Source: Clostridia bacterium (GTDB lineage Bacteria > Bacillota > Clostridia > Oscillospirales > Acutalibacteraceae). From it: a DNA stretch of 64,000 nucleotides. This document shows positions 21,946-60,131 of the stretch, piece after piece. Location: assembly GCA_017474045.1 (NCBI GenBank), contig JAFUHX010000015.1, forward strand, positions 25,289 to 89,288, written 5' to 3'. A program made the translations under genes and the position numbers. Under the pieces are notes generated by a model. It saw only the letters and a program-made list of their open reading frames with translations, was not told the DNA's origin and ran no database searches. Within the stretch, counting starts at the first letter, position 1, and each line of letters begins with the position of its first letter.

Positions 21946-22000
21946 TACTGTCTTTTTTTTGACCCCATTTTAATGATTATTTCAAAGGAGATATAAACTT

Positions 22001-34806: not shown

Positions 34807-34810
34807 TACA

Positions 34811-37648
34811 GTGGAAGAAAGAAAGTTGAAACAGTTTGAGATATATAAGATTGCTACATCCCGTTTCACTGAGAAGAAAGGTACGAAAATCAAAATCAAT
34901 CCTCTTACTCTTACGAAGCGTGAAGCAGTTGAAAACGGCGAGTTGGTCAAAATCCAGTCTAACCAGCTTACCAATAAAATACTTGATTATTTTTCAGAGT
35001 TTGGCATTCCAAACACTAAATTAGAAATGGCTGAACTCATTGTTAATATCGTTGTACCGCCAGAATCTAAGAAGTCCGGCGAAAAGGAATATGCTGAGCT
35101 TGCTAAGAAAGGCTTTGACTTAAACGGCAAGCATTTTGTGAGATTGTATTCCGGCTCTGGTCAAATTCGCAGAAATACAATTACATTCATTAGGGAAGAT
35201 TTATATGAGCCTATCTTCACTTCTCTGCTGTGTGGATTGACATTAGAAGATTTTGGCGATGATTTCAATGCAGCTAAGTTTAATGCTTACTGTGGTTTGA
35301 ATATGTCCGGTTGTTATCTTCTCCCGGAAGAACTTACTCCGAATGTCTGTGTAGTGGATGACTTTGAAGCTATCAGACCACACAACAAAGTAAACTGTGT
35401 GACAGAATCCACGGTTGAATACATTACCCTGCCCGAATGCGATTTCATTCTCACGGATGAGCAAACGGAATTTGACATTGCAGACGGAAAAGCCATTAGA
35501 AAAGCGGATGGAGTAGAATTTACCATCCACAAAGGCGTACATAAGAATATTGAGGTTATTCCCTATGATGAGATTGCAAATTCACCGGCTCTTAACTCAT
35601 TTGATGGTCAAGGGTTGATGACTCCCGAATGGGCGCAGAAGATAGCAAAATTCTTAGATTGGGACTATACCCCGTCTGAAATTATTGTTCGTGCGCCTTG
35701 GGTCAAAGGCTTGCTTGTCACTATGCCTTTAAAGGATTGGTTTGACGAACACGGTATCACAGAGATTACAGACTCTTTTGGAAAAAAGAGACCGGTTGCA
35801 GAGCTTGATTGTATTATCAGCAAGTCACAATTCAAGATGCTCAAAATCTACAAGGCAAAGTGTACGCCTATGGGAGTAAATGCGTGGGACTACCACACAC
35901 AGGCTATGCAGGAGAATCACTTGCTATGGGGTATCAATAAGTCAAACAACAAAGTTGATGACTACAACAAAGCACTGAACTATCAATACCTTCAGGCATT
36001 GCAGCTTAGCAATGACGATATTGGGGAACTTTGCAAGCCAACTGAGGAATTTTTAGAGAAAATCAATAGCGGTAACATTGAAGAAGTTTATAGAAATCTC
36101 GTAGTCAATAACAAGGGATTTCTCGATGATACGACAGAGGATGTCAATTACAAGAAGCTATTCCAGCAAGTGATTGAAGCTAATCCGGCGTTGATTGATG
36201 ATAAGTACATCCGTGAGCTTATCTTCAAAGAATGTGACTCTAAGCTAAACGGCGCAAAGCTCGGAAAGATACTTATTAGAGGTAACTTTCAATTCTGCGT
36301 ATCAGACCCGGTAGCTCAGTTAGAATGGATTTCAAGAAACCATTGTGGATTGGATATTGAGGTCAAGGGCATTGTTCCAGCCGGTCATATCTATTCAAAC
36401 TACTGGCTTAATGCAGATGACTTTACAGAGGAAATTACACTGCTGAGAAGTCCACTAATCGACAGAAACGAAATTGCAAGACGTAAGCTGTTAAGCAACA
36501 CTGAGAGCTATTTCCGCTATCTTCAAAGTGGTTTAGTATTTAGCATTCACGACTTAACCCCGTTGCAGCAAGGCGGCTGTGACTTTGACGGAGATATTAT
36601 TTACTCAACAAATAATCCGATTGTCGCAAAAGGTTGTTATTCCTATGAGGATGCAAAGCCTCTCTATTATGAATTGACTGCAACAGACCTTGTAGGCAGG
36701 ATTACCCCGGCAAACATTATCAATGCTGACATTAGAGGTCTTAATAGCAAAGTTGGAACTATCTCTAACAAGGGTGGTAGCCTGTACGCTAATCTTTTCA
36801 ATTATACTGAGGGTTCACCTGAGTATGAGAATATCTACAATAGCATTATTGCGCTGGGTCAGATAGTTGGAATGGAGATTGACAGAATCAAAACGGCGGT
36901 ATCTCCTACATTCCCTATGGAGTGGAGCTTAATTCAGGCAAAGAAAGGACAGAGCCGTGACTTTGAAGAAGTAAACACAATTTCTGAGGATGAACAGCAA
37001 GGAATTTACAGACATAATGATTTAGTCCCGGATGTTAAGCCTTACTACTTCCGATACAACTATGACTACCTTGCAAAAGCCATTACTCAGCTTAACAAGG
37101 CATTCAATAAGGTCTGTGTGGTTACATATGGGATGAAGTTGTCAGAATTGATTGAGGAATGCAAAAATGGAAAAGCAACAGAAGATATGATGAGATTGTA
37201 TGCTCAGTATCAGAATGCTTACCCCGTCATTGATACAGATTGCATTGTGAATCACATTTGCCATCACTTTGAAGATTTTGAAGCGGCAATGCACAAACAA
37301 GCTCTTTCTGAAGGTAGAAATATGCTAACAGAGTTTGTAAGTGGTAAGCCATTGGATAAGGCTATTCTTGCAAAGACTGAAAATGTCATTGCTGAGTACC
37401 AGAGGTTCAAGAGATTCATCGTGAAGTCATTCACTACCAATTATAAAGAAAGTAACAAAAGCAAGAAGGAAAATACTCACAATTCACTTTCAATGATGAG
37501 GCTCTATTACAGAGATATGATGCTTGACTATGCTGGAGGCGATTATCAGCTTGTATTTGATTACTTAGTCACTGCCTGTAAATCCAATGAAAAGATTGTG
37601 TGGGAAATTCTTGATAAGGATATTATTAAGATTCTGAAAAGAGGTTGA
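34811..37648 (+). CDS. single-chain two-barrel RNA polymerase homologue (YonO/RdRP-like)
   Basis: 945 aa from GTG 34811, 4 bp after the helicase stop with GGAAAGG upstream (an ATG at 34754 is in frame but overlaps the helicase). The catalytic signature CDFDGDIIY lies at 590-598 (D591, D593, D595), preceded by LRSPLIDRNEI (about 545-555), the counterpart of the RNPxxxPGD segment of eukaryotic RNA-dependent RNA polymerases, and followed by DIRGLNSKVGTISNKGG. This is the pattern of the double-psi-beta-barrel polymerases that includes SP-beta YonO and RdRP relatives, not a T7-type enzyme. It is predicted to transcribe element DNA. No partner subunits are seen. Confidence 0.75.
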   Translation: MEERKLKQFEIYKIATSRFTEKKGTKIKINPLTLTKREAVENGELVKIQSNQLTNKILDYFSEFGIPNTKLEMAELIVNIVVPPESKKSGEKEYAELAKKGFDLNGKHFVRLYSGSGQIRRNTITFIREDLYEPIFTSLLCGLTLEDFGDDFNAAKFNAYCGLNMSGCYLLPEELTPNVCVVDDFEAIRPHNKVNCVTESTVEYITLPECDFILTDEQTEFDIADGKAIRKADGVEFTIHKGVHKNIEVIPYDEIANSPALNSFDGQGLMTPEWAQKIAKFLDWDYTPSEIIVRAPWVKGLLVTMPLKDWFDEHGITEITDSFGKKRPVAELDCIISKSQFKMLKIYKAKCTPMGVNAWDYHTQAMQENHLLWGINKSNNKVDDYNKALNYQYLQALQLSNDDIGELCKPTEEFLEKINSGNIEEVYRNLVVNNKGFLDDTTEDVNYKKLFQQVIEANPALIDDKYIRELIFKECDSKLNGAKLGKILIRGNFQFCVSDPVAQLEWISRNHCGLDIEVKGIVPAGHIYSNYWLNADDFTEEITLLRSPLIDRNEIARRKLLSNTESYFRYLQSGLVFSIHDLTPLQQGGCDFDGDIIYSTNNPIVAKGCYSYEDAKPLYYELTATDLVGRITPANIINADIRGLNSKVGTISNKGGSLYANLFNYTEGSPEYENIYNSIIALGQIVGMEIDRIKTAVSPTFPMEWSLIQAKKGQSRDFEEVNTISEDEQQGIYRHNDLVPDVKPYYFRYNYDYLAKAITQLNKAFNKVCVVTYGMKLSELIEECKNGKATEDMMRLYAQYQNAYPVIDTDCIVNHICHHFEDFEAAMHKQALSEGRNMLTEFVSGKPLDKAILAKTENVIAEYQRFKRFIVKSFTTNYKESNKSKKENTHNSLSMMRLYYRDMMLDYAGGDYQLVFDYLVTACKSNEKIVWEILDKDIIKILKRG

Positions 37649-38832: not shown

Positions 38833-39152
38833 CTTTCTTATTTTTGGTAGTAACGCCTTCAGCAAGCGTTATTATATATAATTTTGGATTATCTAAGCCA
38901 ATAGGGGGATGGTTTTTCATCCGTCAGCGCAACGACGAAGATTATTCAAAGTTTGTATGTTAATTTCTTTTGGTAGGTTTGCTATTTTCTCCTGAGTTAT
39001 TGGGAATCAACTTTGCTCGAAAAAAATAGCACTTTCCTTTCTTTAGGTCTGGCATAGCCTTTAAGTATGCCATCTTCTATTAAAAATAGTGGGTGTGTAA
39101 AACGAACAATTACGGGCGTGTAAAGCAAACACAGAAAGTAGGTATTTTATTT
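38833..39152 (+). other. gene-free leader of the capsid operon, with hairpins
   Basis: 320 bp without a gene. Three stems are visible: TAACGC/GCGTTA (38851-38871), GGATG/CATCC (38907-38922) and TGGCATA/TATGCCA (39050-39072). None is followed by a T run. They could form a structured leader for the scaffold gene. No clear sigma-A promoter was found, which would fit use of the element's own polymerase. Confidence 0.5.
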
Positions 39153-39719
39153 ATGGATGATAAAATTGATACTGTGGTAGAAGGCACTGGTGCAACTGAT
39201 ACTTCTGGGGCAACAGACACAACTGATACTTCTGGGGTGGAAACCGAAGAAACCACATTAACGATGACTCAGGATGAACTTAATAAAAAGATTCAGAGTG
39301 AGACAGATAAACTTAGAAATCAGTATTCTAAGCAAATTAAAGAACTCGAAGCAAAGGTAAAGGAGCTTACTCCGGTGCAAAAGTCGGAGGCAGAACTTGA
39401 CTATGAAAAGAGACTTGCAGCACTTGAAGCAAGAGAAAAGGCAGCTACACTTAATGATTCTTTAAAGGCGAATGGAATTTCTAATGAAATTGCAAAGTAC
39501 CTGAAGGATGATGTTGACGTTTCTGCTCTTGCTGAAACTTTAAAGAGTATTGTCGGCGCAGAAGTTGACAAGCACCTGACGGAGGAAGGCTTTGTTCCTA
39601 CTGGTCATAAGTCTGGAAATCCCTTAACAAAAGAGGATTTCAATAAGATGAATATGAGTGAAAAAGAACGCTTGTATGCTGAAAATCCAGACCTCTATAA
39701 ATCTTTGAGTAGAGGCTAA
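39153..39719 (+). CDS. capsid scaffolding protein (DUF4355-like)
   Basis: 188 aa from ATG 39153; the frame opens upstream but the acidic Thr-rich N-terminus (DTVVEGTGATDTSGATDT) of scaffolds starts here. A coiled coil (about 45-110) is followed by a compact C-terminal domain ending GNPLTKEDFNKMNMSEKERLY, the pattern of DUF4355/phage minor structural scaffold proteins. It is made in excess during head assembly and lost before packaging. The next gene is the major capsid protein. Confidence 0.8.
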   Translation: MDDKIDTVVEGTGATDTSGATDTTDTSGVETEETTLTMTQDELNKKIQSETDKLRNQYSKQIKELEAKVKELTPVQKSEAELDYEKRLAALEAREKAATLNDSLKANGISNEIAKYLKDDVDVSALAETLKSIVGAEVDKHLTEEGFVPTGHKSGNPLTKEDFNKMNMSEKERLYAENPDLYKSLSRG

Positions 39720-39741
39720 CAACTGAATATATTATTGTTTT

Positions 39742-39766
39742 GCACGGCTTAGTCCGTGCTTTTTTA
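39742..39766 (+). terminator. terminator or attenuator between scaffold and capsid genes
   Basis: GCACGG (39742-39747) pairs with CCGTGC (39754-39759), followed by T7. It sits inside an assembly operon, so it may tune the scaffold:capsid ratio rather than end the transcript. Confidence 0.8.
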
Positions 39767-39800
39767 TTTATCTAACTAAAATTGAAAAGGAGGGCTTATA

Positions 39801-40634
39801 ATGCCTAATAACATTATTGTTCCTGAGGTATTTGCTGATGCCGTTAATGCCGCTATGGGCGTGAAGCTCCGTGCTGGTAACATTGCAACAGACTATACCA
39901 ATATGATGGATGAAATTACCGAATACGGCGGTAAGGTTCATTTTCCTGTAATTGACCGTATCAATGATGCAGCAGTGGTTGAAAAGGGCGTTGCAATCGT
40001 TCCTAACGACGTGAATATGACTGATGCCGAAGCTGAAATTAAGCAGGTTGCTGCATCTGTCAGAATCTATGATAAGGACAACATTCAGGTTAAGGGTCAT
40101 CTGAAGGATTCTATGGCAAAGCAGCTTGGTGAATCTTTGGCTAAGGCTGTTGATGCTGACCTTGTTAATGCAATTCGTACCGAGGCTGTTTACAAGGATG
40201 ACACTGTGACAGATTTGACACAGGCTGAAATTGAAACTGCATTTGATGTGTTCGGTGACGATGTTGACAATGATACTTTTGCTGGTATTCTTATCAACTC
40301 TCGTCTGCGTAAGAAGTTTATGATGATGGATGCGTTCACCGATTTAACTAAGACAAACACTGTTCTTGGTAATGGTGTTTCTATTCACGGTTGCATCGGT
40401 TTGTGGAATGGTACTATCCCCGTATACGTTTCCAACAACGGTACTTACAATGACGGCAAGGCTATGTTGGCTATTGCTAAGAAGGATGCCCTTGGCATTG
40501 TTTGGCAGCGTGTTCCTTCCGTTGAGGAAGAAAGAGAAGCTAAGTTGCGTTGTACTGACATTGTAGCAGACGAACTTTACGCAACAAAGCTCGTTCATAC
40601 TGATGGTGTATCAGTTCTTGAAATCACTGCTTAA
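39801..40634 (+). CDS. major capsid protein (HK97 fold, N4-gp56-like)
   Basis: 277 aa with a GGAGG site. The whole sequence follows the N4-gp56/HK97-type pattern: an N-terminal arm, the GGKVHFPVIDRINDAAVVEKG segment (about 49-68), a helix with KQLGESLAKAVDADLV (about 118-134), and a C-terminal axial domain with SNNGTYNDGKAMLAIAK. Length is about that of small capsid proteins. Codon use is more regular than that of its neighbours, consistent with high expression. Confidence 0.85.
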   Translation: MPNNIIVPEVFADAVNAAMGVKLRAGNIATDYTNMMDEITEYGGKVHFPVIDRINDAAVVEKGVAIVPNDVNMTDAEAEIKQVAASVRIYDKDNIQVKGHLKDSMAKQLGESLAKAVDADLVNAIRTEAVYKDDTVTDLTQAEIETAFDVFGDDVDNDTFAGILINSRLRKKFMMMDAFTDLTKTNTVLGNGVSIHGCIGLWNGTIPVYVSNNGTYNDGKAMLAIAKKDALGIVWQRVPSVEEEREAKLRCTDIVADELYATKLVHTDGVSVLEITA

Positions 40635-40660
40635 TTACTACTTTTAATATTTTGATGATA

Positions 40661-40689
40661 CTACCCCGTTATTACACCTAACGGGGTAG
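40661..40689 (+). terminator. perfect 10-bp hairpin after the capsid gene
   Basis: CTACCCCGTT (40661-40670) pairs with AACGGGGTAG (40680-40689), followed by ATTGTATTTCT, a weak T tract. It may stabilise the capsid message as much as terminate it. Confidence 0.65.
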
Positions 40690-40736
40690 ATTGTATTTCT
40701 ATATAAAAATTTTAAATGAAAGTGTAGGTGTAAAAA

Positions 40737-41489
40737 ATGCCTGATGTAAATAAAGCTAATAGACAGGTATGCGATGTTTTGATTAACGACCTCAAGACGA
40801 TGAAGCCGTTTCTGAGTTTCGATACCGCTAATACTACTACTGCTGGTCTTTCCAGCGATAGCGTGTACGCTATGGCAAAGGGTTCTCGTAGAATCTCTTT
40901 CACTAACCCCTTGGAGGGCGAAATGAAGATTAGCGCACAGGTGTACCCCTTTAAGTTCTTCGCTCTGCTTTCCGATGGTGTTATTGATAGCACTGCCGTT
41001 TATGCAGATAGCCAGACCGTTGAGTGTGCTACTGCCGGTGAACTTGCTTTGACAGTTCCTACTAATGGTACTATCACTGCCGGTACTGTGTTCGCTTATC
41101 CTGCTGATTCTTTCGGTGATGAGTCTGCTTTGATTGTTGGTACATATGCTGATAATAAGTTCACTGCTACTAATGCCGGTGATATTGCTGTTGGCTCTAA
41201 GTACACTGTTGGTTATGTGATTAACCGTACTGGTGTTAAGAAGATTGCCTTCAATAACAGTAGAGTTCCTAAGGACTACTACATTACTATGACTACGGTT
41301 GATAAGGACGAAGATGGTCTTTTGACTCCGTTCAAGATTATCGCTTACAAGGCTACTATCAATCGTAACTTTGAGCTTTCCTTCAGCTCTGAGGGAGACC
41401 CCGCAGAAGTCGAATTGAGTTTCGCACTTATGGAGGACAAGGACGGCAACGTTCTTGATATGGTAGAGCTTACAGAGGACTCTATCTAA
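40737..41489 (+). CDS. putative virion protein (tail tube or decoration type)
   Basis: 250 aa. A beta-rich, Thr/Ala/Gly-rich protein with an internal Ig-like or tube-like segment (TNGTITAGTVFAYPADSFGDE). Position directly after the major capsid gene and strong codon bias mark it as an abundant structural protein. It most resembles small tail tube/major tail proteins or head decoration proteins, but no motif decides between them. If it is a tail tube protein, it is the only tail gene found. Confidence 0.5.
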   Translation: MPDVNKANRQVCDVLINDLKTMKPFLSFDTANTTTAGLSSDSVYAMAKGSRRISFTNPLEGEMKISAQVYPFKFFALLSDGVIDSTAVYADSQTVECATAGELALTVPTNGTITAGTVFAYPADSFGDESALIVGTYADNKFTATNAGDIAVGSKYTVGYVINRTGVKKIAFNNSRVPKDYYITMTTVDKDEDGLLTPFKIIAYKATINRNFELSFSSEGDPAEVELSFALMEDKDGNVLDMVELTEDSI

Positions 41490-41600
41490 TTTTTCCGTTT
41501 AACTGTTTAACATAAACATATATATAAATTCATTCTTTTCTCTGAATCTTTTATTTTTTCATTGTTGCCTTTCAATATATAAAGATAATTTGGAATGTGG

Positions 41601-41619
41601 GACAGGCTTTGTGCCTGTC
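41601..41619 (+). terminator. hairpin in intergenic region
   Basis: GACAGGC (41601-41607) pairs with GCCTGTC (41613-41619). There is no T run directly after it, so it may be a processing or attenuation stem. The surrounding 41490-41688 holds no gene. Confidence 0.5.
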
Positions 41620-41688
41620 TCATATTCATTTGGAACGGTTCAATTTTTTTACGAAATTCAGAGAGAGTTTGAAAAACAAGGAGGAACT

Positions 41689-41991
41689 ATGCTTAATCGA
41701 CAGCAGATTAAAGATTATAGATTATTAAGAGGCGTTACTACAAGAGATGTAGCCGCCTATTGCGAAATTTCACAGCCTTTAATCGTTCAGGTAGAGAACG
41801 GCACAAAGGATGTCACGAAATACAATCACGATGAAATTTTGAAAGGAATTAACGCTGCTTTTGCGGCAAAAAAGATGGGTACTTATGTGAAGCCATCTAA
41901 CGTGAATTTGCCGAAAACGGTAACAGAGACCGGAGAAACCACTAAGCCGGTCAAGAAATCAACTAAGAAGAAATCTAAGGAGAATGAATAA
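41689..41991 (+). CDS. small HTH protein with Lys-rich tail
   Basis: 100 aa from ATG 41689 with an ideal AAGGAGG. A compact XRE-like HTH (about 5-50; LLRGVTTRDVAAYCEISQPLIVQ) is followed by a Thr/Lys-rich basic tail. It is next in line after the capsid genes and directly abuts the gene at 41992 (no gap). Probably a DNA-binding regulator. Confidence 0.7.
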   Translation: MLNRQQIKDYRLLRGVTTRDVAAYCEISQPLIVQVENGTKDVTKYNHDEILKGINAAFAAKKMGTYVKPSNVNLPKTVTETGETTKPVKKSTKKKSKENE

Positions 41992-42483
41992 ATGAAAGAA
42001 AGATTGTTAATCGCATTGAGAGATTTTGTAGCATTCAATCCTCATTACGATTTAAAGAAGCCAATTAAGGTTAAAAAAGGTTCAATTATCATTGTTGACG
42101 GCGGTATGCCTAAGGATTGTCTCATTTCAAATGATAATGCAATGAGCTTGTTTAGCTCTGATACAGAGGACGGATTTAAGGATATTCTCAACATCTGTAC
42201 TGCAAACAATATAAAAGTTTATGATTTCAGATTAGTAAGAAACACTAAGGCTTTTAAGAATGAAATTTTACTCGCAAATGGAGTGAATTTCCCTCTGTTT
42301 TATTGGTTCGACAATTTCAAGAATGTTCCGTTTAGTGAGTACGACTTTAATAATAATTATCATATCGTCTCCACTGTTGACATTTACGGAAAACCCATTG
42401 ATATGGTTGTTACTATCACAAATAAAGATAGAATTGTTATGAGTGACGATAACCATTTGATTATGATTATTGGAGATGAGTAA
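41992..42483 (+). CDS. hypothetical protein
   Basis: 163 aa, ATG immediately after the previous stop codon. Beta-rich with acidic patches (SSDTEDGFKDILNIC) and a C-terminal segment IVSTVDIYGKPIDMVVTITNKDR. No recognised domain, no signal peptide. Probably expressed together with the adjacent small genes. Confidence 0.6.
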   Translation: MKERLLIALRDFVAFNPHYDLKKPIKVKKGSIIIVDGGMPKDCLISNDNAMSLFSSDTEDGFKDILNICTANNIKVYDFRLVRNTKAFKNEILLANGVNFPLFYWFDNFKNVPFSEYDFNNNYHIVSTVDIYGKPIDMVVTITNKDRIVMSDDNHLIMIIGDE

Positions 42484-42486
42484 AAA

Positions 42487-42663
42487 GTGAAAACAGCTAA
42501 TGACTTAGAACACTTGAAAAGTGTAGCTAAGCGGAATATTGACTTTTACAAATTCTACCCAGATGAGTTTGAAGAAACTATGTCAATGAAAGGCTATAAG
42601 CAGTCTGAGATTGACTTTATGAAAAAGCATATTGAGAAATTAGGCGGTAAGCCTACTGACTAA
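42487..42663 (+). CDS. small hypothetical protein
   Basis: 58 aa from GTG 42487, behind GGAGATGAG, 3 bp after the preceding stop. Helical, with many Lys and Glu residues (NDLEHLKSVAKRNIDFYKFY). It has continuous coding character but is too short to assign. It precedes the radical SAM cassette by 55 bp. Confidence 0.6.
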   Translation: MKTANDLEHLKSVAKRNIDFYKFYPDEFEETMSMKGYKQSEIDFMKKHIEKLGGKPTD

Positions 42664-42718: not shown

Positions 42719-43969
42719 GTGATTAAAGATGCAATGACCGGTTTAAATATTGAGCTTACCAGAAGATGTAATATGAATTGCCCTCATTGTGCAAAGGGTG
42801 AACCTCAGAATATTGATATAAGCAAAGAAATAATTGATAAAACCTTTGATGAAGTAGGTAATATATATATTCGTACAATCAGAATCACAGGTGGAGAACC
42901 TTTTCTTAATCCAGATGGGTTAGAATATTTGGTTGATAGTATGATTAACCACAAAATAAAAGTGCGCCATATTGAAGTCTTTACAAATGGTTCTATTCAA
43001 AACAACAATATAGCGAAGTCATTACAGCGTTTGTGCGCTTATTTAAATACCATTCAATCTGATGTGTTGAAGTATGAAAATTGCTATTTTGGAAGTGGAC
43101 ATATCATTTCTGACAATCCAAATAACCTAAACAGAAAAACTAAAGCAGGAGAAGTCTATTGTATAGTTAGTCAACAATATCATCGAAATATTTTCCAAGA
43201 AAATACTGTTTCGTATTACAAGAATAAGGTAGATATGGACAATTTCTTTATCAATTTACAAAACGCTACGATATTTAAAAATATCTGGAAAAACTTAGAG
43301 GGTAACTTACTAAAAAACTATAAATCTTTTTCAAAAAGAGACCTTCAAGCAATTCTTATTAAAAACAATCGCTTTTGTATCATCAATGATGACTGTGGAA
43401 AAAGAATCATTGAAAAAACTATTACTGTTTCTGCAAATGGAAATGTTTTTGCTGGAAATCTAATTGCGTATGAAAAAGTTGATAGAGAAGTAATGATTTT
43501 AAATATCTCTGATTGTCAGAATAATTTTATGGATTTGATTGATTTGTGGTGTTGGAAACATCCAATAAATCACATAACTAACAGAAAATATGAAGAATAT
43601 ATGGCATATGAGTGGTTAAAAGACAAAGGCTTATTGTGTTCAGGTTCGCCACTGAACAAATATAAAGATTACCCAGTGAGTGTTAGTGATTATGTTAAGG
43701 CTGCTGAACAAGACTTAATTAAAATACATCATATGCTACCATATCTATCACATAATGAAATTGAGGAATTTTATACTCTTGATTTTTGTATGCAAATGGG
43801 CATAAATGATGTAACCAAATTTTTCCTTCGTACTTTTTCTAAATATGATGAAAACTCAATAAATGTAATTTTGAATACGCCGGGATATTTCAAAGCTGGA
43901 AAAATGAAATTAGCTATTGAAAATGAAGTTAGAAAAATACAGGCAAAGAAAGGAGGAGTTGGTGCGTGA
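42719..43969 (+). CDS. radical SAM protein of the three-gene cassette
   Basis: 416 aa from GTG 42719, 11 nt after AGGAGG; a further-upstream GTG at 42707 overlaps the ribosome site. The 4Fe-4S/SAM motif is C-NMN-C-PH-C (C18, C22, C25), followed by RITGGEPFLNPDGLEYL, the GGEP motif. The C-terminal part (about 220-416) holds further cysteines (CIINDDC, CW, CSG) that may form an auxiliary cluster region, as in SPASM/twitch-type enzymes that modify peptides. It is not viperin-like. A 12-codon mini-ORF (42688-42726) overlaps its start and may couple translation. The next gene begins inside its stop (GTGA). Confidence 0.8.
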   Translation: MIKDAMTGLNIELTRRCNMNCPHCAKGEPQNIDISKEIIDKTFDEVGNIYIRTIRITGGEPFLNPDGLEYLVDSMINHKIKVRHIEVFTNGSIQNNNIAKSLQRLCAYLNTIQSDVLKYENCYFGSGHIISDNPNNLNRKTKAGEVYCIVSQQYHRNIFQENTVSYYKNKVDMDNFFINLQNATIFKNIWKNLEGNLLKNYKSFSKRDLQAILIKNNRFCIINDDCGKRIIEKTITVSANGNVFAGNLIAYEKVDREVMILNISDCQNNFMDLIDLWCWKHPINHITNRKYEEYMAYEWLKDKGLLCSGSPLNKYKDYPVSVSDYVKAAEQDLIKIHHMLPYLSHNEIEEFYTLDFCMQMGINDVTKFFLRTFSKYDENSINVILNTPGYFKAGKMKLAIENEVRKIQAKKGGVGA

Positions 43970-44778
43970 GTTTTGGGAGTGAAATAAAAGATAAAAATAT
44001 GTGGGACAAAAATCTACTTTCAGCATATAAAAGTTTTTTTAAAATGGTAAATGATTTAAATTTCCCATTGTTTTCATCATATGAAAAGATATTGAATCTT
44101 TGTAAAAACGATTTGTATTTAAAATATGAAATAAGCAACTTTATAAATCAAGTTTTTCCTTCACCACAAAACACCATATATGGCGAATTTATTTCTAATA
44201 ATATAACAGAATTGTTAAGGAAAAATAATGTAGTGAATGGTTTTGATGGCTTTTTGGCACAAAAATCAATAACCGATTATAAATTATTTCTCGATGAATT
44301 AAAACGAACTGATGATAGCCTAAAAGAAAAAGGATTGCTTGTAGACGATATTATGAGAGATAGAGCAAGAAGATTTGATACTAAACCAATACATATAGAC
44401 GGTTATAATTTGTTTTTTCACGGAACTCCACGTGAGAATTTTTTAAAAATTGAGAAATCCGGTTGCTTAATGTATAAACCATATGAACCAGCTATTCACG
44501 ACAGCTTTATGAATACAATTATAGAGTTAGAAAAAAAGAGAGTATATCTTAGCGATAACTTTGATGATACAATTTATTATGCGCTGAAACAATCTCTCGA
44601 TGGTTACATTATTGCGGTGAATATGGATGGATGTATTTTACACAATGACCTACATATATCTAATCGTCATTTTTGGACTACTGAACCAATTCAAAAAGAT
44701 AGGTTTGTTAATATATATCATATTACGGTGAAAGACAACAAAATCACTATAACTGATAAGGATGGTGTTATCTTATGA
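43966..44778 (+). CDS. ADP-ribosyltransferase-like protein (PARP/Tpt1 fold)
   Basis: 270 aa from GTG 43966, overlapping the upstream stop by 4 nt. The C-terminal half carries an ADP-ribosyltransferase-type pattern: LFFHGTPRENFLKIEKSG (H152), KRVYLSDNFDDTIYYAL (Y194) and TTEPIQKDRFVNI (E240), consistent with an H-Y-E catalytic triad. The N-terminal half is helical with no recognised domain. Relatives transfer ADP-ribose from NAD to proteins or nucleic acids, or act as RNA 2'-phosphotransferases; which of these applies here cannot be read from sequence. It is coupled to radical SAM and phosphatase genes. Confidence 0.65.
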   Translation: MSFGSEIKDKNMWDKNLLSAYKSFFKMVNDLNFPLFSSYEKILNLCKNDLYLKYEISNFINQVFPSPQNTIYGEFISNNITELLRKNNVVNGFDGFLAQKSITDYKLFLDELKRTDDSLKEKGLLVDDIMRDRARRFDTKPIHIDGYNLFFHGTPRENFLKIEKSGCLMYKPYEPAIHDSFMNTIIELEKKRVYLSDNFDDTIYYALKQSLDGYIIAVNMDGCILHNDLHISNRHFWTTEPIQKDRFVNIYHITVKDNKITITDKDGVIL

Positions 44779-45677
44779 TTTATTGTGTTTCTGATATTCA
44801 CGGAAGGATTGACCTTTTTGAAAGATTGCTGGAAACAATAAACTTTTCAAATAATGACACTATTTATGTTTTAGGTGATAGTATAGACAGAGGCGGTGGT
44901 TTTGCTGTCTTAGAGAAAATTATTAAATTACAAGAAAAAGGTCAGGCTAAATTCATACAAGGAAACCACGAAATAAATTTTGTGTCTAATGTATCAAAAT
45001 TAAATAATTCAGTAGTAAGCGAATTGTATTATGGTGACTTATTTTTTGAATCTAAGAGAAGAAGAAACCGAGTTTCGTTTTCAGATGAATACAAACATAT
45101 GGTGAAACAGCAAGAATTATTCCAACAATTTCGTGATTCTGTAAATGCAGCTACAAATCTAACACAATATGAATCTTACTTATCCTGCGAAGAATACTTT
45201 AATAGTTATGAATTAGAAGAAAGAAAAAAGGTAATAGATTTCATTTCATCTGCACCGACATATATTGACATCGAAGTAAATATGCACAAATTTAGATTAC
45301 TTCACGCTGGCTGTAACTCTGATGGAAAGACGAATTTATATATTCGAGAGGAATTTTATAAAAATCCAAATCCACTTGAAAACACAACTATTATTTTCGG
45401 ACATACAACCACAAAAGATATTCGTATGCAGATAGATGGCGTTTATTCACAGCCTTCAATATGGTATGATAATAGGAATAATAATGATAAAATTGGAATA
45501 GATTGTGGTTGCTGCTTTGCTGGTGGTAAATTAGCTTGCCTCAGATTAGACGATATGAAGGAATTTTATGTTGATAATGACAAATTAACAGCGTTTCCAT
45601 TCTCAAAACTGAACGATTATTTTTATAATAATCAATACTCTATGTCAAAATTAAAAGAAGATATATGGAGTTTATAA
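44775..45677 (+). CDS. calcineurin-like metallophosphatase
   Basis: 300 aa; ATG overlaps the stop of the ART-like gene (ATGA). Motifs of the PPP/ApaH-type dinuclear phosphoesterases: DIHGR (7-11), LGDSIDRGGG (about 33-42), GNHE (about 62-65), HAG (about 192) and FGHT (about 218), the five metal-binding blocks. About 100 residues are inserted between the third and fourth blocks. Such enzymes remove phosphate from Ser/Thr or cleave dinucleoside polyphosphates. In this cassette it may reverse or complete the reaction of its partners. A terminator (45688-45718) closes the unit. Confidence 0.85.
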   Translation: MIYCVSDIHGRIDLFERLLETINFSNNDTIYVLGDSIDRGGGFAVLEKIIKLQEKGQAKFIQGNHEINFVSNVSKLNNSVVSELYYGDLFFESKRRRNRVSFSDEYKHMVKQQELFQQFRDSVNAATNLTQYESYLSCEEYFNSYELEERKKVIDFISSAPTYIDIEVNMHKFRLLHAGCNSDGKTNLYIREEFYKNPNPLENTTIIFGHTTTKDIRMQIDGVYSQPSIWYDNRNNNDKIGIDCGCCFAGGKLACLRLDDMKEFYVDNDKLTAFPFSKLNDYFYNNQYSMSKLKEDIWSL

Positions 45678-45687: not shown

Positions 45688-45718
45688 TTAAGGACTACCC
45701 TTCAGCAAGGTAGTCCTT
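45688..45718 (+). terminator. terminator of the three-gene cassette
   Basis: GGACTACC (45690-45697) pairs with GGTAGTCC (45707-45714), then TTTT. Confidence 0.88.
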
Positions 45719-45742: not shown

Positions 45743-45907
45743 ATGAAGAAAAAAATTAGTGAAGAAGAATACAATATTACTTATGCTGCCTTAAAGCTCA
45801 TCGAGAACTTATTCAAGCAAGGCAGAATCAAACAACATATTTTTAAGAACATTTTAGAGGATTATCGAGACTCTATTGACATATCAGCTTTTAAGTGCTA
45901 TACTTAA
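45743..45907 (+). CDS. small SHOCT-like protein upstream of the serine recombinase
   Basis: 54 aa from ATG 45743 with AGGAG upstream. Pattern ISEEEYNITYAALKLIENLFKQGRI.., helical with charged residues, as seen in small proteins encoded next to serine recombinases of Firmicute elements. The promoter of the recombinase lies inside its 3' end. Confidence 0.6.
   Translation: MKKKISEEEYNITYAALKLIENLFKQGRIKQHIFKNILEDYRDSIDISAFKCYT
45876..45904 (+). promoter_or_regulatory. sigma-A promoter of the serine recombinase
   Basis: TTGACA 45876-45881 and TATACT 45899-45904, spacing 17, within the end of the small SHOCT-like gene. Confidence 0.82.
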
Positions 45908-45950: not shown

Positions 45951-47762
45951 ATGTATAACTATAATACACTTACTCCAAAGGAAAGAAAAGTAGTAGTCTA
46001 TGCCCGTGTTTCAACGGAACACGAAGCTCAGCTATCAGCACTGGAAAATCAGAAGGATTGGTATAAACCTATTCTTGCACAACATCCTGAATGGACTGTA
46101 ATTAGGATGTATGTTGATGAGGGTATCACCGGTACATCGGCACAAAAGAGACCTCAGTTTATGCAGATGATTGAAGATGCTGACGATGGAGAATTTGACT
46201 TGATTCTTACCAGAGAGGTATCAAGATTTGCAAGAAACACAGTTGATACACTGCAATATACCCGTAACCTGAAGGCAAAGGGTGTTGAGGTTTTCTTTAT
46301 CAACGATAACATTAAGACTTTTGATGGAGATGGAGAACTCAGACTTACCATTATGGCTACATTGGCGCAGGATGAGAGCCGTAAGACTTCAATCCGTGTA
46401 AAGAGTGGTCAACAGACCTCAATGGAAAATGGCGTTTTCTATGGTAACGGAAATATTCTTGGCTATGACCGTGTAGGTAAGGAAATGATTATCAATCCCG
46501 AACAGGCTAAGACCGTTAGAATGATTTTCGATGATTACTTAGACGGTGTTGGCATTCGTGCAATAAAGTTTAGGCTTGAACAAGCCGGAAGATTAACTGC
46601 TATGGGTAAATCCAACTGGCACGAGAGTAACATATCTAAGGTATTACAGAATAGCTTCTATTGTGGTATTATCACCTATCACAAAGAGTTTACTCCTGAC
46701 TTCTTAGAGCAGAAGAAAATCCGTAATTTTGGTGATATGGAATTTACCAAAGTAAGAGGTTCACACGAACCTATCATTACTGAGGAAGAATTTGAAAGAG
46801 TGCAAAAGATGATTGCAGCACGTAGAAGAACTTTATCGAATGTTACTTCTGGAAAGAGAAAAGCATTAGGCGAAAAACAGCCGGGTGACGTTTGGACTGA
46901 GCTTTTAATCTGTGAGTGTGGTCATAAATTCAATCGTAAGATTTGGCACAATAAAGGTGATATTAAACAGTATGGGTATCAGTGCTATTCATCTATCCGT
47001 ACCGGCTCATTAAAGACAAGGCAAAACAAAGGCTTATCTACTGAAGGCATTTGTGAAGTGCCTATGCTGGCTGGCTGGAAATTACAGATGATGGCTAAGC
47101 ATATTTTCAGAGAGTATTTGAAAGATACCGTACAAGTATTGGCTCTTGCAGAATCAATGTTGGAAAAACACATTGACGATGTAGAAGAACCACAAGACAA
47201 TGAAAAGATAATTAAGCAAAAACGAGATGAAGCAGACAAGCTAAATAAACGTTTGCATAATCTTATTGAGATGAGAGCAGACGGCGAAATTTCAAGAGAT
47301 GTATTCAAGGTCAAGAAAGAAGAAATTGAAAACCGCCTTGCTGCTATTCAAAAAGAATTGGCTGAGTTAGAGCCGGTTCAAGAAGTGGTAGACGAAGCTA
47401 CACACGAAGAAAAGATTACACTGTTAAAATACTATTTGGAACAGTCGGTTAAGCCTACAAATGATGAGGATATACCGGAAGATGTAATTCGTGCATTCGT
47501 AATAAAAATCGTAGCTCATAAGGATGGATTTGACTGGTATTTACGTTTTAGTCCCGATAAACCGCCTAAAACATTGGGTATTGAAGGCAAGCGTAAAGAC
47601 TCCGCAAAAGTTTCCTCCCTTAGTTTGCCACAACACAGGCAGCAATCGCAAATAAGTAATCTATCTTATATAGATTTGTCCCCACCGATTCTCGGTGGGG
47701 ATTTTGTTATTTATAGGTATGCAACGACAACACAGGCAGCTATTGCCGATGGCAGGAAATAA
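45951..47762 (+). CDS. large serine recombinase
   Basis: 603 aa. Catalytic Ser21 in VVVYARVSTEHEAQ, then the resolvase domain (about 12-160) with SRFARNTVDTL, the recombinase domain (about 165-290), a zinc-ribbon part (about 320-375, CECG..C) and a long coiled coil (about 400-480). These enzymes catalyse integration and excision. The last 30 residues (SYIDLSPPILGGDFVIYRYATTTQ) resemble read-through into adjacent DNA, as seen when an element end follows the gene. Second integrase of the element. Confidence 0.9.
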   Translation: MYNYNTLTPKERKVVVYARVSTEHEAQLSALENQKDWYKPILAQHPEWTVIRMYVDEGITGTSAQKRPQFMQMIEDADDGEFDLILTREVSRFARNTVDTLQYTRNLKAKGVEVFFINDNIKTFDGDGELRLTIMATLAQDESRKTSIRVKSGQQTSMENGVFYGNGNILGYDRVGKEMIINPEQAKTVRMIFDDYLDGVGIRAIKFRLEQAGRLTAMGKSNWHESNISKVLQNSFYCGIITYHKEFTPDFLEQKKIRNFGDMEFTKVRGSHEPIITEEEFERVQKMIAARRRTLSNVTSGKRKALGEKQPGDVWTELLICECGHKFNRKIWHNKGDIKQYGYQCYSSIRTGSLKTRQNKGLSTEGICEVPMLAGWKLQMMAKHIFREYLKDTVQVLALAESMLEKHIDDVEEPQDNEKIIKQKRDEADKLNKRLHNLIEMRADGEISRDVFKVKKEEIENRLAAIQKELAELEPVQEVVDEATHEEKITLLKYYLEQSVKPTNDEDIPEDVIRAFVIKIVAHKDGFDWYLRFSPDKPPKTLGIEGKRKDSAKVSSLSLPQHRQQSQISNLSYIDLSPPILGGDFVIYRYATTTQAAIADGRK

Positions 47763-47884
47763 TCTTCACTCAGTTCGCTGAATTCACCCTGACGATTGAG
47801 GATGCACAGGAATATGTCTATTCCATATCCCCAACAAAGCGTGTCAGAGGCTGGCGAGATATTGAAGTAAAACTCTATATTTAA
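47762..47884 (+). pseudogene. 3' remnant of a gene beyond the recombinase
   Basis: A frame continues after the recombinase stop, overlapping it by one base, and encodes about 40 residues (IFTQFAEFTLTIEDAQEYVY followed by a basic segment ending IEVKLYI), ending at TAA 47882-47884. No start or ribosome site precedes it. It looks like the tail of a host or older recombinase gene cut by integration, so the element's right end probably lies within about 100 bp of here. Confidence 0.45.
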
Positions 47885-47887
47885 AAT

Positions 47888-47989: not shown

Positions 47990-48898
47990 TTAATTAGGAA
48001 TAAGAGTTTTTAATTTCGAAGTGTTTTTGATTGTTCTAATTAAAAAGCTTTTCTCCTCATCAGGAATATTGTTTCTAGGGGATGCAATAATTCCTTCTAT
48101 AACGCTAATAACTTGATCATATTTTGATTCAATATGACATTCCTTAATAAATGCAAGAGCATCTTCTGCAGTTTTTATGTCTTGCTCATGTGCTTCCAGC
48201 TCTTTTTTTAATGCATTAATTTGTGATTTTTCACCTTTTATGCAATGTGATTGCAACTCTTCTGTTAGCATATTTTTTCTTTCTGAAGATGTTTTTATGC
48301 TTTCCCAATCAGTTGTGCCAACACGAGAATAAATATTGCCAACCAACCATCCTAACTTTGCTTTAAATTCATCACTTAATTCCAACACCTTGGCTGATAG
48401 GCATTTGTCATAATGTAGCTCGCTTTTTAGTGCGATTGAAACTTTGAGAGATGCTATCATTGAATTTGTCAAACCAAGAGAGCCATCTTTGTATAAAAAG
48501 AAATAATCAGGTTCCGTATTATTATACATTCTTTCTAGAAGTTGATAAGACTTTTCCCAATTCTTGGAATCCATAAATAATAATCCATTTATGCATTCTG
48601 CATATTTATTCTTCAGTAATAAACTTTCAAAAAAATCATCGAAACTCCTTACTGCTGCCAATGTTATATAAGGTGTTTTACATTTATTGTTTTTTCTACG
48701 AACTAAATCACAACTTTGAGTAAGAACCATAAAATATTTATATTGTTCATTTAAAAAGTATGGATGTATTTCCTTTAAAACATCTTTTAGTTCATCTGTT
48801 ATTTCAAGTAGATCACCTTGGCATAATGAGGACTGATCCAAGTTCTCTTTATAAGTAAAGTGTACAGTACTAACTCTATCATTGTCTGACAAAGACAT
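47990..48898 (-). CDS. unknown protein of a three-gene putative defence operon
   Basis: 302 aa from ATG 48898, overlapping the upstream stop by one base (TGATG). The segment YFMVLTQSCDLVRRKNNKC (about 56-74) is notable: a Cys-Asp pair after a hydrophobic strand, seen in uncharacterised proteins of defence neighbourhoods. A coiled-coil/helical C-terminus (about 200-270) follows. I do not recognise a catalytic site. Its neighbours are also unknown, and the location between mobile-element and defence genes makes a defence role plausible. Confidence 0.55.
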   Translation of the reverse strand: MSLSDNDRVSTVHFTYKENLDQSSLCQGDLLEITDELKDVLKEIHPYFLNEQYKYFMVLTQSCDLVRRKNNKCKTPYITLAAVRSFDDFFESLLLKNKYAECINGLLFMDSKNWEKSYQLLERMYNNTEPDYFFLYKDGSLGLTNSMIASLKVSIALKSELHYDKCLSAKVLELSDEFKAKLGWLVGNIYSRVGTTDWESIKTSSERKNMLTEELQSHCIKGEKSQINALKKELEAHEQDIKTAEDALAFIKECHIESKYDQVISVIEGIIASPRNNIPDEEKSFLIRTIKNTSKLKTLIPN

Positions 48899-49134
48899 CA
48901 ACCTTCTTTTAACATTTTATTTAATTCCTTATATGAATCTTTTTTCTGTTTGCTTTTGAAATCGACTTTAATGTGTCCACTAACTTTAATTTTTGAAACA
49001 TGAGAATCAATCGAAACTTTTATAGAAATGTCACGTTGTACAATATTTGCACGTGTATTGTGAGTTAAACTTTTTTTGGGAGTTAATACAGCTTTTCTAC
49101 CAAAAGTTGCTTTTGCATTATTTGTATTACTCAT
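48898..49134 (-). CDS. small basic protein of the same operon
   Basis: 78 aa from ATG 49134, which overlaps the upstream gene's stop by 8 nt. Basic, Lys-rich, with strand-like patterns (ISIKVSIDSHVSKIKVSGHI). No domain recognised. Tight overlap on both sides suggests a stoichiometric partner. Confidence 0.65.
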   Translation of the reverse strand: MSNTNNAKATFGRKAVLTPKKSLTHNTRANIVQRDISIKVSIDSHVSKIKVSGHIKVDFKSKQKKDSYKELNKMLKEG

Positions 49135-49750
49135 TATCAATATCCTCAATATCATATCCTAAGCTAGTTACAATATCTTTAGAATATCCAATAAAGTCGA
49201 CAACACGCTCATAATCAAAAACAATGGAGCTAATATCCGGTTCAGAATGATGTTCATTTAAATGAATTTTCGAATAATTCTGTTCTTGATTGTATTGAAT
49301 GTTGATTGTCTTATCATCTTTTTCTATTGTGCGATTCATTTGTGAATTAACAATTGCATAATTTAATCTGCTCAGAACTTGTGAATCTGAAACGTTATCA
49401 AACATATCAGGTAACAATGTATTGTCAGTTTCTATAAAATCAATATTTAATCCATAAGCAGCCAAAAAGGGAGTTTTTGCTTTAGTAATATAGTTGTTTG
49501 CACATTTTGCAAGGAAATCAATGGTTTCCGGTTTGATATTTGTTGCGGTAAGGACGACTTTTTCTTGTGAAGGGTTAATTATGATATTATCGCATTTATA
49601 AGAAACATTAATATCTATTCCCTGGGCATCAACACCAATTTCCATTTCGGATTTACAAAAAATGTTTGTAGCAACCCAATCAGGTTGAACATAAAGTTTA
49701 TTCCAATCTCCTAATAATACAATTGCCAAAGAGTTATCAACAATATTCAT
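49127..49750 (-). CDS. unknown protein, first gene of the same operon
   Basis: 207 aa. Mixed alpha/beta with a start LAIVLLGDWNKLYVQPDWVATN, and a mid-protein FLAAYGLNIDF. Weak similarity in layout to the sporadic TIGR04255 proteins is possible but I cannot confirm it. ATG is preceded by GAGGGACAA. It heads a three-gene operon with overlapping ends. Confidence 0.55.
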   Translation of the reverse strand: MNIVDNSLAIVLLGDWNKLYVQPDWVATNIFCKSEMEIGVDAQGIDINVSYKCDNIIINPSQEKVVLTATNIKPETIDFLAKCANNYITKAKTPFLAAYGLNIDFIETDNTLLPDMFDNVSDSQVLSRLNYAIVNSQMNRTIEKDDKTINIQYNQEQNYSKIHLNEHHSEPDISSIVFDYERVVDFIGYSKDIVTSLGYDIEDIDNE

Positions 49751-52603: not shown

Positions 52604-54652
52604 TTATATTAAATATTTACGCCTTAAATCTATAAAAAAACTTCTGTTCTTGCTATGACTGTTTGCTAAATAATTTATTGCTCGTATAACATCTGTGGTA
52701 GAATACCGGATATTCAGTTGGTCGACTATTTCATCTAAAATCTCTGTATTTAGACTTTTTAAAGAGCTAGTCATTCCATAATCCTTCATAGCACTTATTA
52801 CAAGCCTTTGATTTTCTGATAAATTATCTATATCTAGATTGCCATAAGTTTTAGTATAATATCTGCTCTTACATGCCTCTAAAGACTCAATAACGTTTTT
52901 CCCAAATACCCAATCACGTTTTTGTTCATAAAGTTCTAAGCCGATATTAACAATAGGCATTATGTAATATTCAAGCGTAGAGTAAATAAATTGCATATAA
53001 GCATTAATGATTGATGTATTACTCCACTTAAAATCAGTTTTATATTTAAAAAAAGCAATTCTATCGTTATAATCATTTAAAAAGTTTTTTTGGCCGTTTT
53101 TAAAATAATTAAACTGCAAATATCCTTGCATTAACACCGCATCTGTTTTGGGAACACCTGAATATTCCCTAGAAAACGCTTTGCTAGCCATAAAAGGCAA
53201 GTTTGTAAAGTTAGGAAAGTTCCTATCTTCTTTTAATACATCTAATATTTTTCCAAGCTTATTTAATGAAATCTTATGACTTTTTATTACTTCTTGGCAA
53301 AAATCAAAATTGATATCATAAGATTCTGAAAAACTAGTTATTTTATCTGTGTTTTTACTATCTTCAATCTCTGATAATTCTTCTTCATCGGAAATAGCTA
53401 ATGAAATAATAATCTCATCTTCTACAACATTTTCTATTTTACTAGTCGAAAAAATATGTCCTATTGGATACTTGCCTAATCTTCCAGCTCTTCCCACTGT
53501 GTTTTTTAATAATAAAGTATCAATCGAATTTGTTGAATCAGGATGAATAAAAAGATTTTTAGTAGATGTATTTATCCCTTCTGAAATTGAGTTGGTTCCA
53601 AACAAAATATTATAGCATTCATTTTCATTAAATAAATTAATCATTCTGTTTTGAACATACTTTGGCATTTGGCCGTGATGGGTTAAAATTTTTGCCTTTA
53701 AAAGTTTAACTACACTCCAATCAGGATGTATATCCGTTTCTAGTTGCCTAACAAAATCTGTGATTTCCTCAGAGGTCAAAAGGGAACTTATTTCTTCATA
53801 TGTATCATTTATTTGATTTGGCGTCCTGCAAAACAGTAGAGTTTTTTCATCTAACCCTTTGGTTAATAGCGTTGAGAAAAAATTGTCTTTTTCTAAAATT
53901 GAATAGTTTTTTTCAACGGCATTAAAACTAGAATTAAAAATATGAAAACCATACTTTTCAAACCCTTGTAATGTTGCTTTGGGTGTCAGAAGAAAAACTT
54001 TTTTTGAATTGTTTGCTAAACTATCTAAAAAGGTTTCGGATAACTTATACGCTCTTTGGTTATTAACAACTGATTCTTGAAGCTTATACGCCTCATCAAT
54101 AACAAATAAATCTATTGTTCCTATAATGGAAAAATCTATTTCCAAAAACTTTTCCTGAGTACCTATAAAAAACAAATTTTCATCTATTTTTTGCTTTTCC
54201 TTTAGTCTATCAATCTGAGAACACTTGTCAAAAATAACATATTGTGAAAAGTTGGGGTTTTCTTTAAAACTTCTTTCCAATTCATACGCAAGCGCATTTG
54301 TTGGAACGATATAAACAATATTTCTAGGTTTTTTTTGAAATATATATTCCTTAACTAGTAATGTTTTTCCGAATGATGTTGGCGCAGAAATTATAACCCT
54401 TTCTTTTTCATATAAACACGCCAAGGCCCTATACTGAGGTGGAGAAAAATATAATTCATCATTTATGTGTTCAATTTTTCTTGAAAAATTTTTGTTAATC
54501 ATTATCGACTCATAAAGATTCATATCAAAGTCATCGGTTTTAAAATATGGAGTAAGATCGTACATTCCTAATTCCATATTCGATACTTCTTTGCCTTGGT
54601 CTAATTCTTCTAATATTTTTTTGCGCTTATTATTAAATCCGATTTCACTCAT
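52604..54652 (-). CDS. hamB: Hachiman helicase HamB
   Basis: 682 aa. SF2 helicase: motif I ISAPTSFGKTLL (K96), motif II VIDEAYKLQ (D186, E187) and motif VI VGRAGRLG (about 395), followed by a large C-terminal region. In the Hachiman defence system HamB senses DNA changes and licenses HamA nuclease. The start overlaps the hamA stop (ATGA at 54652-54649), which supports a two-gene operon. Its sequence is close to known HamB length and pattern. Confidence 0.8.
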   Translation of the reverse strand: MSEIGFNNKRKKILEELDQGKEVSNMELGMYDLTPYFKTDDFDMNLYESIMINKNFSRKIEHINDELYFSPPQYRALACLYEKERVIISAPTSFGKTLLVKEYIFQKKPRNIVYIVPTNALAYELERSFKENPNFSQYVIFDKCSQIDRLKEKQKIDENLFFIGTQEKFLEIDFSIIGTIDLFVIDEAYKLQESVVNNQRAYKLSETFLDSLANNSKKVFLLTPKATLQGFEKYGFHIFNSSFNAVEKNYSILEKDNFFSTLLTKGLDEKTLLFCRTPNQINDTYEEISSLLTSEEITDFVRQLETDIHPDWSVVKLLKAKILTHHGQMPKYVQNRMINLFNENECYNILFGTNSISEGINTSTKNLFIHPDSTNSIDTLLLKNTVGRAGRLGKYPIGHIFSTSKIENVVEDEIIISLAISDEEELSEIEDSKNTDKITSFSESYDINFDFCQEVIKSHKISLNKLGKILDVLKEDRNFPNFTNLPFMASKAFSREYSGVPKTDAVLMQGYLQFNYFKNGQKNFLNDYNDRIAFFKYKTDFKWSNTSIINAYMQFIYSTLEYYIMPIVNIGLELYEQKRDWVFGKNVIESLEACKSRYYTKTYGNLDIDNLSENQRLVISAMKDYGMTSSLKSLNTEILDEIVDQLNIRYSTTDVIRAINYLANSHSKNRSFFIDLRRKYLI

Positions 54653-55536
54653 ATTTTATCACCCAACTCATACAATTTGGAACGAGAGGTTTCTATAATT
54701 TTGGCAATAAGCCACTTCTTGCTTTTTATAGGTAAGTGCACCATAAAAATTTCAAACTTACCTTTTATATCCTTAACATTTAATGATTTTTTTATGTTTT
54801 CCGTTAAGGCTTGCGTAGATATTTTATAAACATCATAAAAATTATCATTACTATACTTACTAATGTCAGTTTCTGAATGTAGAACAAATCCTGCAAAGAT
54901 AATTTTTTGGTTTATAAATTGGTCAACAGTAAGCTCGTCATAACCATCCGAACCCAAATTTTTAATAATAATTCTGCATGTTTCAATACAATTTTCTGCC
55001 GCACTTTGAAGATTTTCTAATTTATTTTTAATACTTTTTTTCGTAAAATCTTCAATTATTTTGTTAATGCCAGAATATAAATCGCTGTAAAATTTAGCTT
55101 CACCTAAAACAATAATATTATTTTCTATGTCGTACATACACGCGTCAACGCCCGTATGAGAATCGTTCAGAGTATCAGTTACATCAATTATACCTTTTGC
55201 TAATTGATAATCGTATAAATCTCTAAAAACTAAACCGAGTATTCCTTCGGCAAGGAAAGAGTAAAACGAAACATTTGAAGCCATACTTTTATCAATAAAA
55301 TCATCTAAATTTATGGTGGTTTTTGTTTTGGGAGCAAATCTTCTGTATATATTCCTTTTTTTAAAAGTGTCTAAGTTGTCTTCTGCAAACATATGTTTCA
55401 AATTTTCATCATCAAAGACAATATCGGGTAATGCTTTTTCAATTTCGCCAGGAGCAAAAATAATATTTTTAATTCCAATCGAACCAAAAGTTGTTTTTAG
55501 TTCAACTTTTGGAATCTTATACTGATATTCAAACAT
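54649..55536 (-). CDS. hamA: Hachiman nuclease HamA (DUF1837-like)
   Basis: 295 aa. Nuclease-fold residues: E97 in SFLAEGIL, D131 in SHTGVDACM, E146 and K148 in VLGEAKFY, a PD-(D/E)xK-type arrangement as in HamA. It lies upstream of the helicase with overlapping start. Together they form Hachiman, an anti-phage system in which HamA degrades DNA on activation. Family known for phage defence; the identification is from domain pattern and gene order. Confidence 0.78.
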   Translation of the reverse strand: MFEYQYKIPKVELKTTFGSIGIKNIIFAPGEIEKALPDIVFDDENLKHMFAEDNLDTFKKRNIYRRFAPKTKTTINLDDFIDKSMASNVSFYSFLAEGILGLVFRDLYDYQLAKGIIDVTDTLNDSHTGVDACMYDIENNIIVLGEAKFYSDLYSGINKIIEDFTKKSIKNKLENLQSAAENCIETCRIIIKNLGSDGYDELTVDQFINQKIIFAGFVLHSETDISKYSNDNFYDVYKISTQALTENIKKSLNVKDIKGKFEIFMVHLPIKSKKWLIAKIIETSRSKLYELGDKI

Positions 55537-59125: not shown

Positions 59126-59141
59126 AACGATGCCTCCCCCC

Positions 59142-60091: not shown

Positions 60092-60131
60092 AACAATTCT
60101 CTCTTTCTCTGCTAAACGATAATTTAGCGGC

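Follow-up and report, generated by a model that had tools for sequence, protein, structure and literature searches.

Phage RNA-repair neighbourhoods have been described in which an ADP-ribosylating sirtuin stands with, among others, an occasional calcineurin-like phosphoesterase (PMC9503650). The same source describes most viral ADP-ribosyltransferases (ARTs) as evolving fast, which it takes to hint at roles in conflict, and nowhere in its main text does it mention "radical SAM". KptA-like toxins, and how ADP-ribose is taken off RNA ends, are discussed in PMC11833690, and capsid-forming phage-inducible chromosomal islands (cfPICIs) are described in PMC11389934 as satellites that take phage tails. 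The sirtuin–phosphoesterase neighbourhoods (PMC9503650) are the nearest published parallel found to a cassette of three genes in contig JAFUHX010000015.1, which encode a radical S-adenosylmethionine (SAM) protein, an ART-like protein and a phosphoprotein phosphatase (PPP)-type metallophosphatase. All coordinates are positions in the window, that is, the whole 64,000-nt stretch of this contig that was analysed. The cassette is a new combination of known superfamilies, its host is an integrated, capsid-encoding mobile element, and, in keeping with the original prediction, no described system with this combination was found in a limited literature search.

The three genes are consecutive plus-strand open reading frames (ORFs; Table 1) starting with GTG, GTG and ATG, and, as had been predicted, they are joined by the overlaps GTGA (first/second) and ATGA (second/third). 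Four-base gene overlaps of this kind are common in operons. AGGAGG was found upstream of the radical SAM and ART-like genes and a weaker AAGGA upstream of the phosphatase gene. The GC content of the three genes was 0.303, 0.284 and 0.301, respectively, and their GC content at third codon positions (GC3) was 0.247, 0.229 and 0.229, the lowest three values among the 29 element ORFs of at least 120 amino acids (aa) between 15493 and 47762, in a comparison made post hoc, with the genes already seen and the bounds chosen by the authors. In the whole window (52 ORFs of at least 120 aa), GC3 was equally low only in an ORF pair at 47990-49750, in two Hachiman-like genes and in ORF 61336-61746. The low GC3, shared by the three genes and unlike that of their neighbours, is good evidence of a common origin. 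By its coupling, composition and place, the cassette looks like one operon gained as a single piece of low-GC DNA. The terminator that the original prediction had assigned to it is weaker than claimed, as the hairpin is present, but it was scored by the terminator scan on the minus strand only and its plus-strand T-run comprises four bases, two of them inside the stem.

Table 1. Features of the cassette and of the element that carries it
Feature	Positions	Strand	Evidence and remarks
Presumed TerS, TerL, portal (starts 19855, 20377, 22001)	19855-23401	+	TerL and portal by PHROG; TerS presumed from its place before TerL and a match to relatives
Scaffold, major head protein (starts 39093, 39801), ORF 40737, XRE-like protein	39093-41991	+	Scaffold and head by PHROG; XRE-like by HTH_3 (1.6e-4, slightly under the Pfam cut-off)
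ORFs of 163 and 58 aa, after the XRE-like gene and before the cassette	41992-42663	+	ORF list
Radical SAM protein, 416 aa	42719-43969	+	PF04055 (1.4e-11), PF13353 (2e-7); CxxxCxxC, GGEP, extra C-terminal region
ART-like protein, 270 aa	43966-44778	+	N-terminal part of ~140 aa; C-terminal ART-like domain ~147-270; H152, Y194, E240
PPP-type metallophosphatase, 300 aa	44775-45677	+	phrog_246 (1.6e-34, residues 2-271), PF00149 (4.1e-11)
Hairpin, possible terminator	45690-45718	.	Terminator scan, minus strand only
52-aa ORF preceding the recombinase gene	45743-45901	+	No Pfam match
Large serine recombinase of the element	45951-47762	+	PF00239 (2.9e-31), PF07508 (1e-23)

The placement of the cassette as cargo of a phage-like element, also claimed before, agreed with the genes around it. 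Besides the terminase (TerL), portal, scaffold and major head genes and a large serine recombinase that starts 273 bases past the cassette, the element encodes a 964-aa protein (34754-37648) that resembles RNA-dependent RNA polymerases by profile (RdRPs; PF05183, 6e-16). Some related elements encode a protein of 1,100-1,200 aa with weak similarity to this RdRP-like protein. No tail module was recognised in the subset of window ORFs that was scanned; an immunoglobulin (Ig)-domain protein at 28147-29277 gave weak matches to head/tail families (phrog_215, 1.9e-5; phrog_341, 9.1e-5). The search for an attachment (att) site revealed no identical repeat. Close to the element ends lies a direct repeat of 35 bases with 80% identity (14880-14914 and 47852-47886), which may be the trace of an earlier insertion at this position; the right end of the element is also similar to the gene at 12056-14758 in the 3' end of the latter.

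Head proteins with about 50% identity to that of the window are encoded in 12 IMG/VR loci; two other genomes of a 300-genome family sample have the head protein as well, and the scaffold and XRE-like genes are also present in related elements. The elements of genomes G234 and G247, about 15 kb long, share the order integrase-like, scaffold, head, XRE-like, TerS, TerL and portal, followed by unrelated genes, with the integrase-like ORF called by its match to that of the window in G247 and by eye in G234, and their ORF lists showed no apparent tail module. In the ORF lists of the integrated elements L123 and L124, of about 15 kb and with head and packaging genes, no tail module was apparent, one ORF having been family-scanned. 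The element family is thus read as capsid-encoding, apparently tailless and satellite-like, and it may depend on a helper.

The variable genes of related elements occupy the slot between the XRE-like gene and TerS. This slot was at least partly covered in 13 of the 15 loci surveyed (12 viral and three from genomes; not in L109 and L125) and contained a radical SAM homologue in nine of them (L105, L108, L110, L111, L114, L115, L116, L117 and L118) and none in L112, L113, L123 and L124. L105 and L108 are apparently the same element, L111 ends at a contig edge, L114 is split over two frames and the L118 stretch comes without TerS. The radical SAM gene of the window lies in the same slot if the element is taken as a circle. 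Directly before the radical SAM gene, a small cold-shock-domain-like ORF was located in eight of the nine loci, with L105 and L108 counted apart; L118 has only an apparent broken remnant of it, and in the window no such ORF directly precedes the gene. Of two such ORFs checked against Pfam, the one from L115 scored over the cut-off (9.8e-10) and the one from L108 slightly under it (6.8e-6). Radical SAM homologues were also identified in genomes G084 (35% identity) and G036 (28%) of the family sample, with integrase- or resolvase-like ORFs nearby as judged by eye, and relatives of the ART-like protein and phosphatase were not found near them. No ORF of the slot loci matched either of these two window proteins best (E 0.01 in one comparison and 0.001 in the other). 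The radical SAM gene family is carried alone in the same slot by related elements, and the locus seems to join a radical SAM gene that recurs on its own to an ART–phosphatase pair that is so far unique.

Such an arrangement could mean that the cassette is made up of two cargo modules that have nothing to do with each other, namely a radical SAM gene of the kind that stands alone in this element family and an ART–phosphatase pair that came to lie beside it by chance. The recurrence of radical SAM homologues without the other two genes speaks for this explanation, and so do the phosphatase relatives, which recur without either: in 19 viral phosphatase loci (some of them duplicate contigs), tblastn at E 1 over up to 4 kb on each side revealed neither an ART nor a radical SAM relative. 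A regular expression meant to pick out ART-like ORFs next to phosphatases matched at 12 of the 19 loci, but in several cases it had hit the phosphatase, and it was dropped. Against chance proximity stand the four-base overlap and the near-equal GC3 of all three genes, and the explanation is considered rather unlikely.

The radical SAM assignment is secure by PF04055 and PF13353. The PF04055 match (45.3 bits, cut-off 29.5) covers residues 11-104 only, and the protein belongs to the superfamily by this score and its CxxxCxxC motif. In a profile search against solved structures, YydG was the nearest (1.2e-8), followed by viperins and other radical SAM enzymes, none of the matches reaching past profile position 166. 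The prokaryotic viperin model NF038283 (NCBIfam) gave 32.6 bits against a cut-off of 180, and in PADLOC-DB a generic pVip model matched the radical SAM core (1.2e-9). Cys220, Cys266 and Cys278 are conserved in L108, L020 and L114, two of the three are kept in L118, and they are missing in more distant rows; their pattern would be compatible with an auxiliary iron–sulphur cluster in this branch. Among named phage records there were only six weak, partial radical SAM matches, and no relative of the protein turned up when viral contigs were scanned with this single sequence. In a scan of genome contigs for radical SAM relatives, 80 of at least 190 confirmed ones were kept, most of them matching the core only, and the neighbourhoods of L025, L026, L027, L030 and L062 were inspected. 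In L062, genes for a radical SAM protein and for a PPP phosphatase lie about 1 kb from each other; this locus was not counted owing to an intervening ORF and a different setting. In Staphylococcus phage phiST9-A (OQ578993.1, L017 4923-6068), a radical SAM gene adjoins the integrase.

The calcineurin-like phosphatase assignment is equally secure, by phrog_246, PF00149 and the match to lambda phosphatase. The protein has the complete motifs SDIHG, GDSIDRG, GNHE, LHAG and GHT, and with these metal motifs and a near full-length profile match it is a PPP enzyme of the NinI/lambda type. A six-sequence profile (A4) matched lambda phosphatase 1g5b (1.5e-24), then ApaH and one bacterial structure, presumably PNKP; D7, H9, D35, N64, H65, H177 and H210 are invariant in its alignment. 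The stretch between GNHE and LHAG exceeds that of five viral relatives by about 34-49 aa and does not contain their NGG motif, and a C-terminal extension is present. At E 0.01, 56 phage records match the phosphatase. Two weak Cas4 model matches (0.001 and 0.008) were noted in PADLOC-DB. The original prediction had the phosphatase removing phosphate or ADP-ribose. Because the enzyme is of a PPP type found in other phages, protein dephosphorylation is at least as likely as ADP-ribose removal.

For the middle protein, H152, Y194 and E240 were found at the positions claimed before, and they fall in invariant H, Y and E columns of an alignment with seven distant phage rows, the H having been part of the search pattern. 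The model of the C-terminal domain built from this alignment (predicted local distance difference test, pLDDT, 57) aligned best to CC0527, tRNA 2'-phosphotransferases and ADP-ribosyltransferases, nearly all VIA-align matches being ART folds. The model gives moderate support to an ART-like fold of this domain, but the tests on sequence alone gave weak results, as did Foldseek by its E-values. Pfam, NCBIfam and PADLOC contained no match to the protein; phrog_13493, a family without assigned function, matched it at 8.5e-4 and, used as a bridge, gave marginal matches in two of 298 other genomes of the phylum and in none of 38 other relatives. In the profile comparison with KptA, none of 200 shuffles reached the score, yet only 23 columns were involved; 11 of 200 did so for DUF3990 and 142 of 200 for DarT. 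The KptA profile was built from two of three members, and the third was used in the pairwise test. Pairwise z-scores of the domain against KptA, DUF3990 and DarT members ranged from -1.0 to 1.8 (KptA, 0.6-1.5), with 1.1 as the best of 31 controls. PF01885 (KptA/Tpt1) did not match the protein at E<=10, the HMMER filters dropping most matches above 0.1, nor was it matched in the protein's own genome. When solved structures were searched with a mixed alignment of the ART-like protein, the only matches were at E 0.21 and 0.64, and a second pattern, around VYLSDNFDD, had zero matches in viral contigs. A single-sequence fold of the full protein (pLDDT 35.8) was discarded. Five phage records at E 8-9 from a weak-limit tblastn of the domain, which returned no plasmid, and a match in G496 (E 0.006 over 62 aa, in a frame with three stops) were rejected as chance. 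The family phrog_3303, unnamed and present in Felixounavirus, Pakpunavirus and other phages (e.g., L155-L160), has an ART-like pattern, and 375 phage records match one of its members.

The favoured reading combines an operon acquired as one piece, an ART-fold domain, a coupled phosphatase and a role in conflict. A low-GC cargo operon would have been taken up whole by an apparently tailless, capsid-encoding element. Its ART-fold domain, as far as the model can be relied on, would move ADP-ribose from NAD onto a macromolecule, and the phosphatase, apparently intact and made from the same mRNA, would most likely counteract, activate or complete that reaction. The radical SAM enzyme would be an independent modifying enzyme. 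The set might serve conflict with the host or with competing phages, in which the effector would be the ART-like protein; a phage–host conflict role is a best guess. As a whole, the reading is put forward tentatively, at somewhat less than an even chance. Several observations weigh against it. The co-occurrence of the three genes elsewhere, which the original prediction implied, did not materialise: no second genome with the trio was found in the phage records, viral contigs and genomes searched, including tblastn for the ART-like and phosphatase genes across 106 loci, and in the same collections the ART-like protein had no convincing relative to show its conservation. Its domain model is of low confidence and was built on rows chosen by a motif search, Foldseek gave no match under E 0.39 and mostly unrelated folds after CC0527, and the profile comparison beyond the search motif gave no signal, 10 of 100 shuffles being as good. 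In PADLOC-DB, no known anti-phage system matched with all components; the generic pVip and weak Cas4 matches were the ones obtained and none was specific to the cassette. Finally, the element, within the bounds chosen for it, includes neither the Hachiman-like nor the type I restriction genes. The status of the trio as a system is not established, and the radical SAM gene alone is the recurrent part.

The same structural doubts would fit a middle protein that is an unrelated or degenerate domain and not an active ADP-ribosyltransferase, in a cassette that serves the host in some ordinary regulatory or metabolic way. The failed single-sequence model, the lack of a family match, the non-significant Foldseek result and pairwise scores within or near noise for three ART families point that way, but nearly uniform VIA-align matches to ART folds and the invariant H152, Y194 and E240 columns do not, which leaves this explanation rather improbable. 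It is unlikely that the cassette repairs RNA ends or tRNAs to counter host nucleases: a KptA/Tpt1-like ART would act on a terminal phosphate and the phosphatase would clear the remaining phosphate, letting the element survive tRNA-cutting defences, but the cassette contains no RNA ligase, and the KptA likeness is confined to 23 columns, with weak pairwise scores and no Pfam KptA match. Quite unlikely is an undescribed three-enzyme conflict system of a tailless satellite, in which the radical SAM enzyme would prime or modify a target or cofactor, a KptA-like ART would add ADP-ribose to an RNA end or protein and the co-translated PPP phosphatase would resolve the product, with the radical SAM gene and cold-shock-type neighbours as a standing accessory of the satellite family.

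To the right of the cassette, at a distance of about 7 to 17.5 kb, a Hachiman-like pair (minus strand, 52604-55536; HamB 2.4e-71, HamA 1.2e-11) with very low GC3 adjoins type I restriction genes for nuclease, specificity and methylase (56060-63181). These genes are a setting that fits defence and proves nothing about the cassette. Between them and the element, the low-GC minus-strand ORF pair at 47990-49750 had no convincing family matches.

If the trio worked as one system, radical SAM chemistry would be linked to ADP-ribosylation in phage conflict, and no such link was found in the literature searched. Even if the trio is no system, a radical SAM gene recurs in capsid-encoding, apparently tailless elements, and the cassette points to the unnamed phage family phrog_3303 as possibly ART-like.

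Compared with cfPICIs, the window element likewise has its own terminase, portal and head genes and an integrase, and the ORF lists of its relatives L123 and L124 gave no sign of a tail module; it differs in its serine recombinase and RdRP-like gene, and the likeness is one of plan. The domain model of the middle protein, of moderate strength, resembles KptA/Tpt1, other ART enzymes and CC0527 in element order and fold, and the protein shares HGT and (Y/H)LS-type motifs with this group. In contrast, it has the Y of the H-Y-E pattern where KptA members have VHLS, the N-terminal lobe of KptA was not seen by sequence and no pairwise identity was significant. Like prokaryotic viperins and YydG, an enzyme of ribosomally synthesised and post-translationally modified peptides (RiPPs), the first protein has an N-terminal radical SAM core, whereas its C-terminal region is its own. 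The phosphatase keeps all metal-site motifs of the NinI- and lambda-type phage enzymes and is 33-42% identical to the five viral relatives, one of which belongs to a named Oscillospirales phage; it is set apart from this type by its longer GNHE–LHAG stretch, the missing NGG motif, its C-terminal extension and its place in an operon with ART-like and radical SAM genes.
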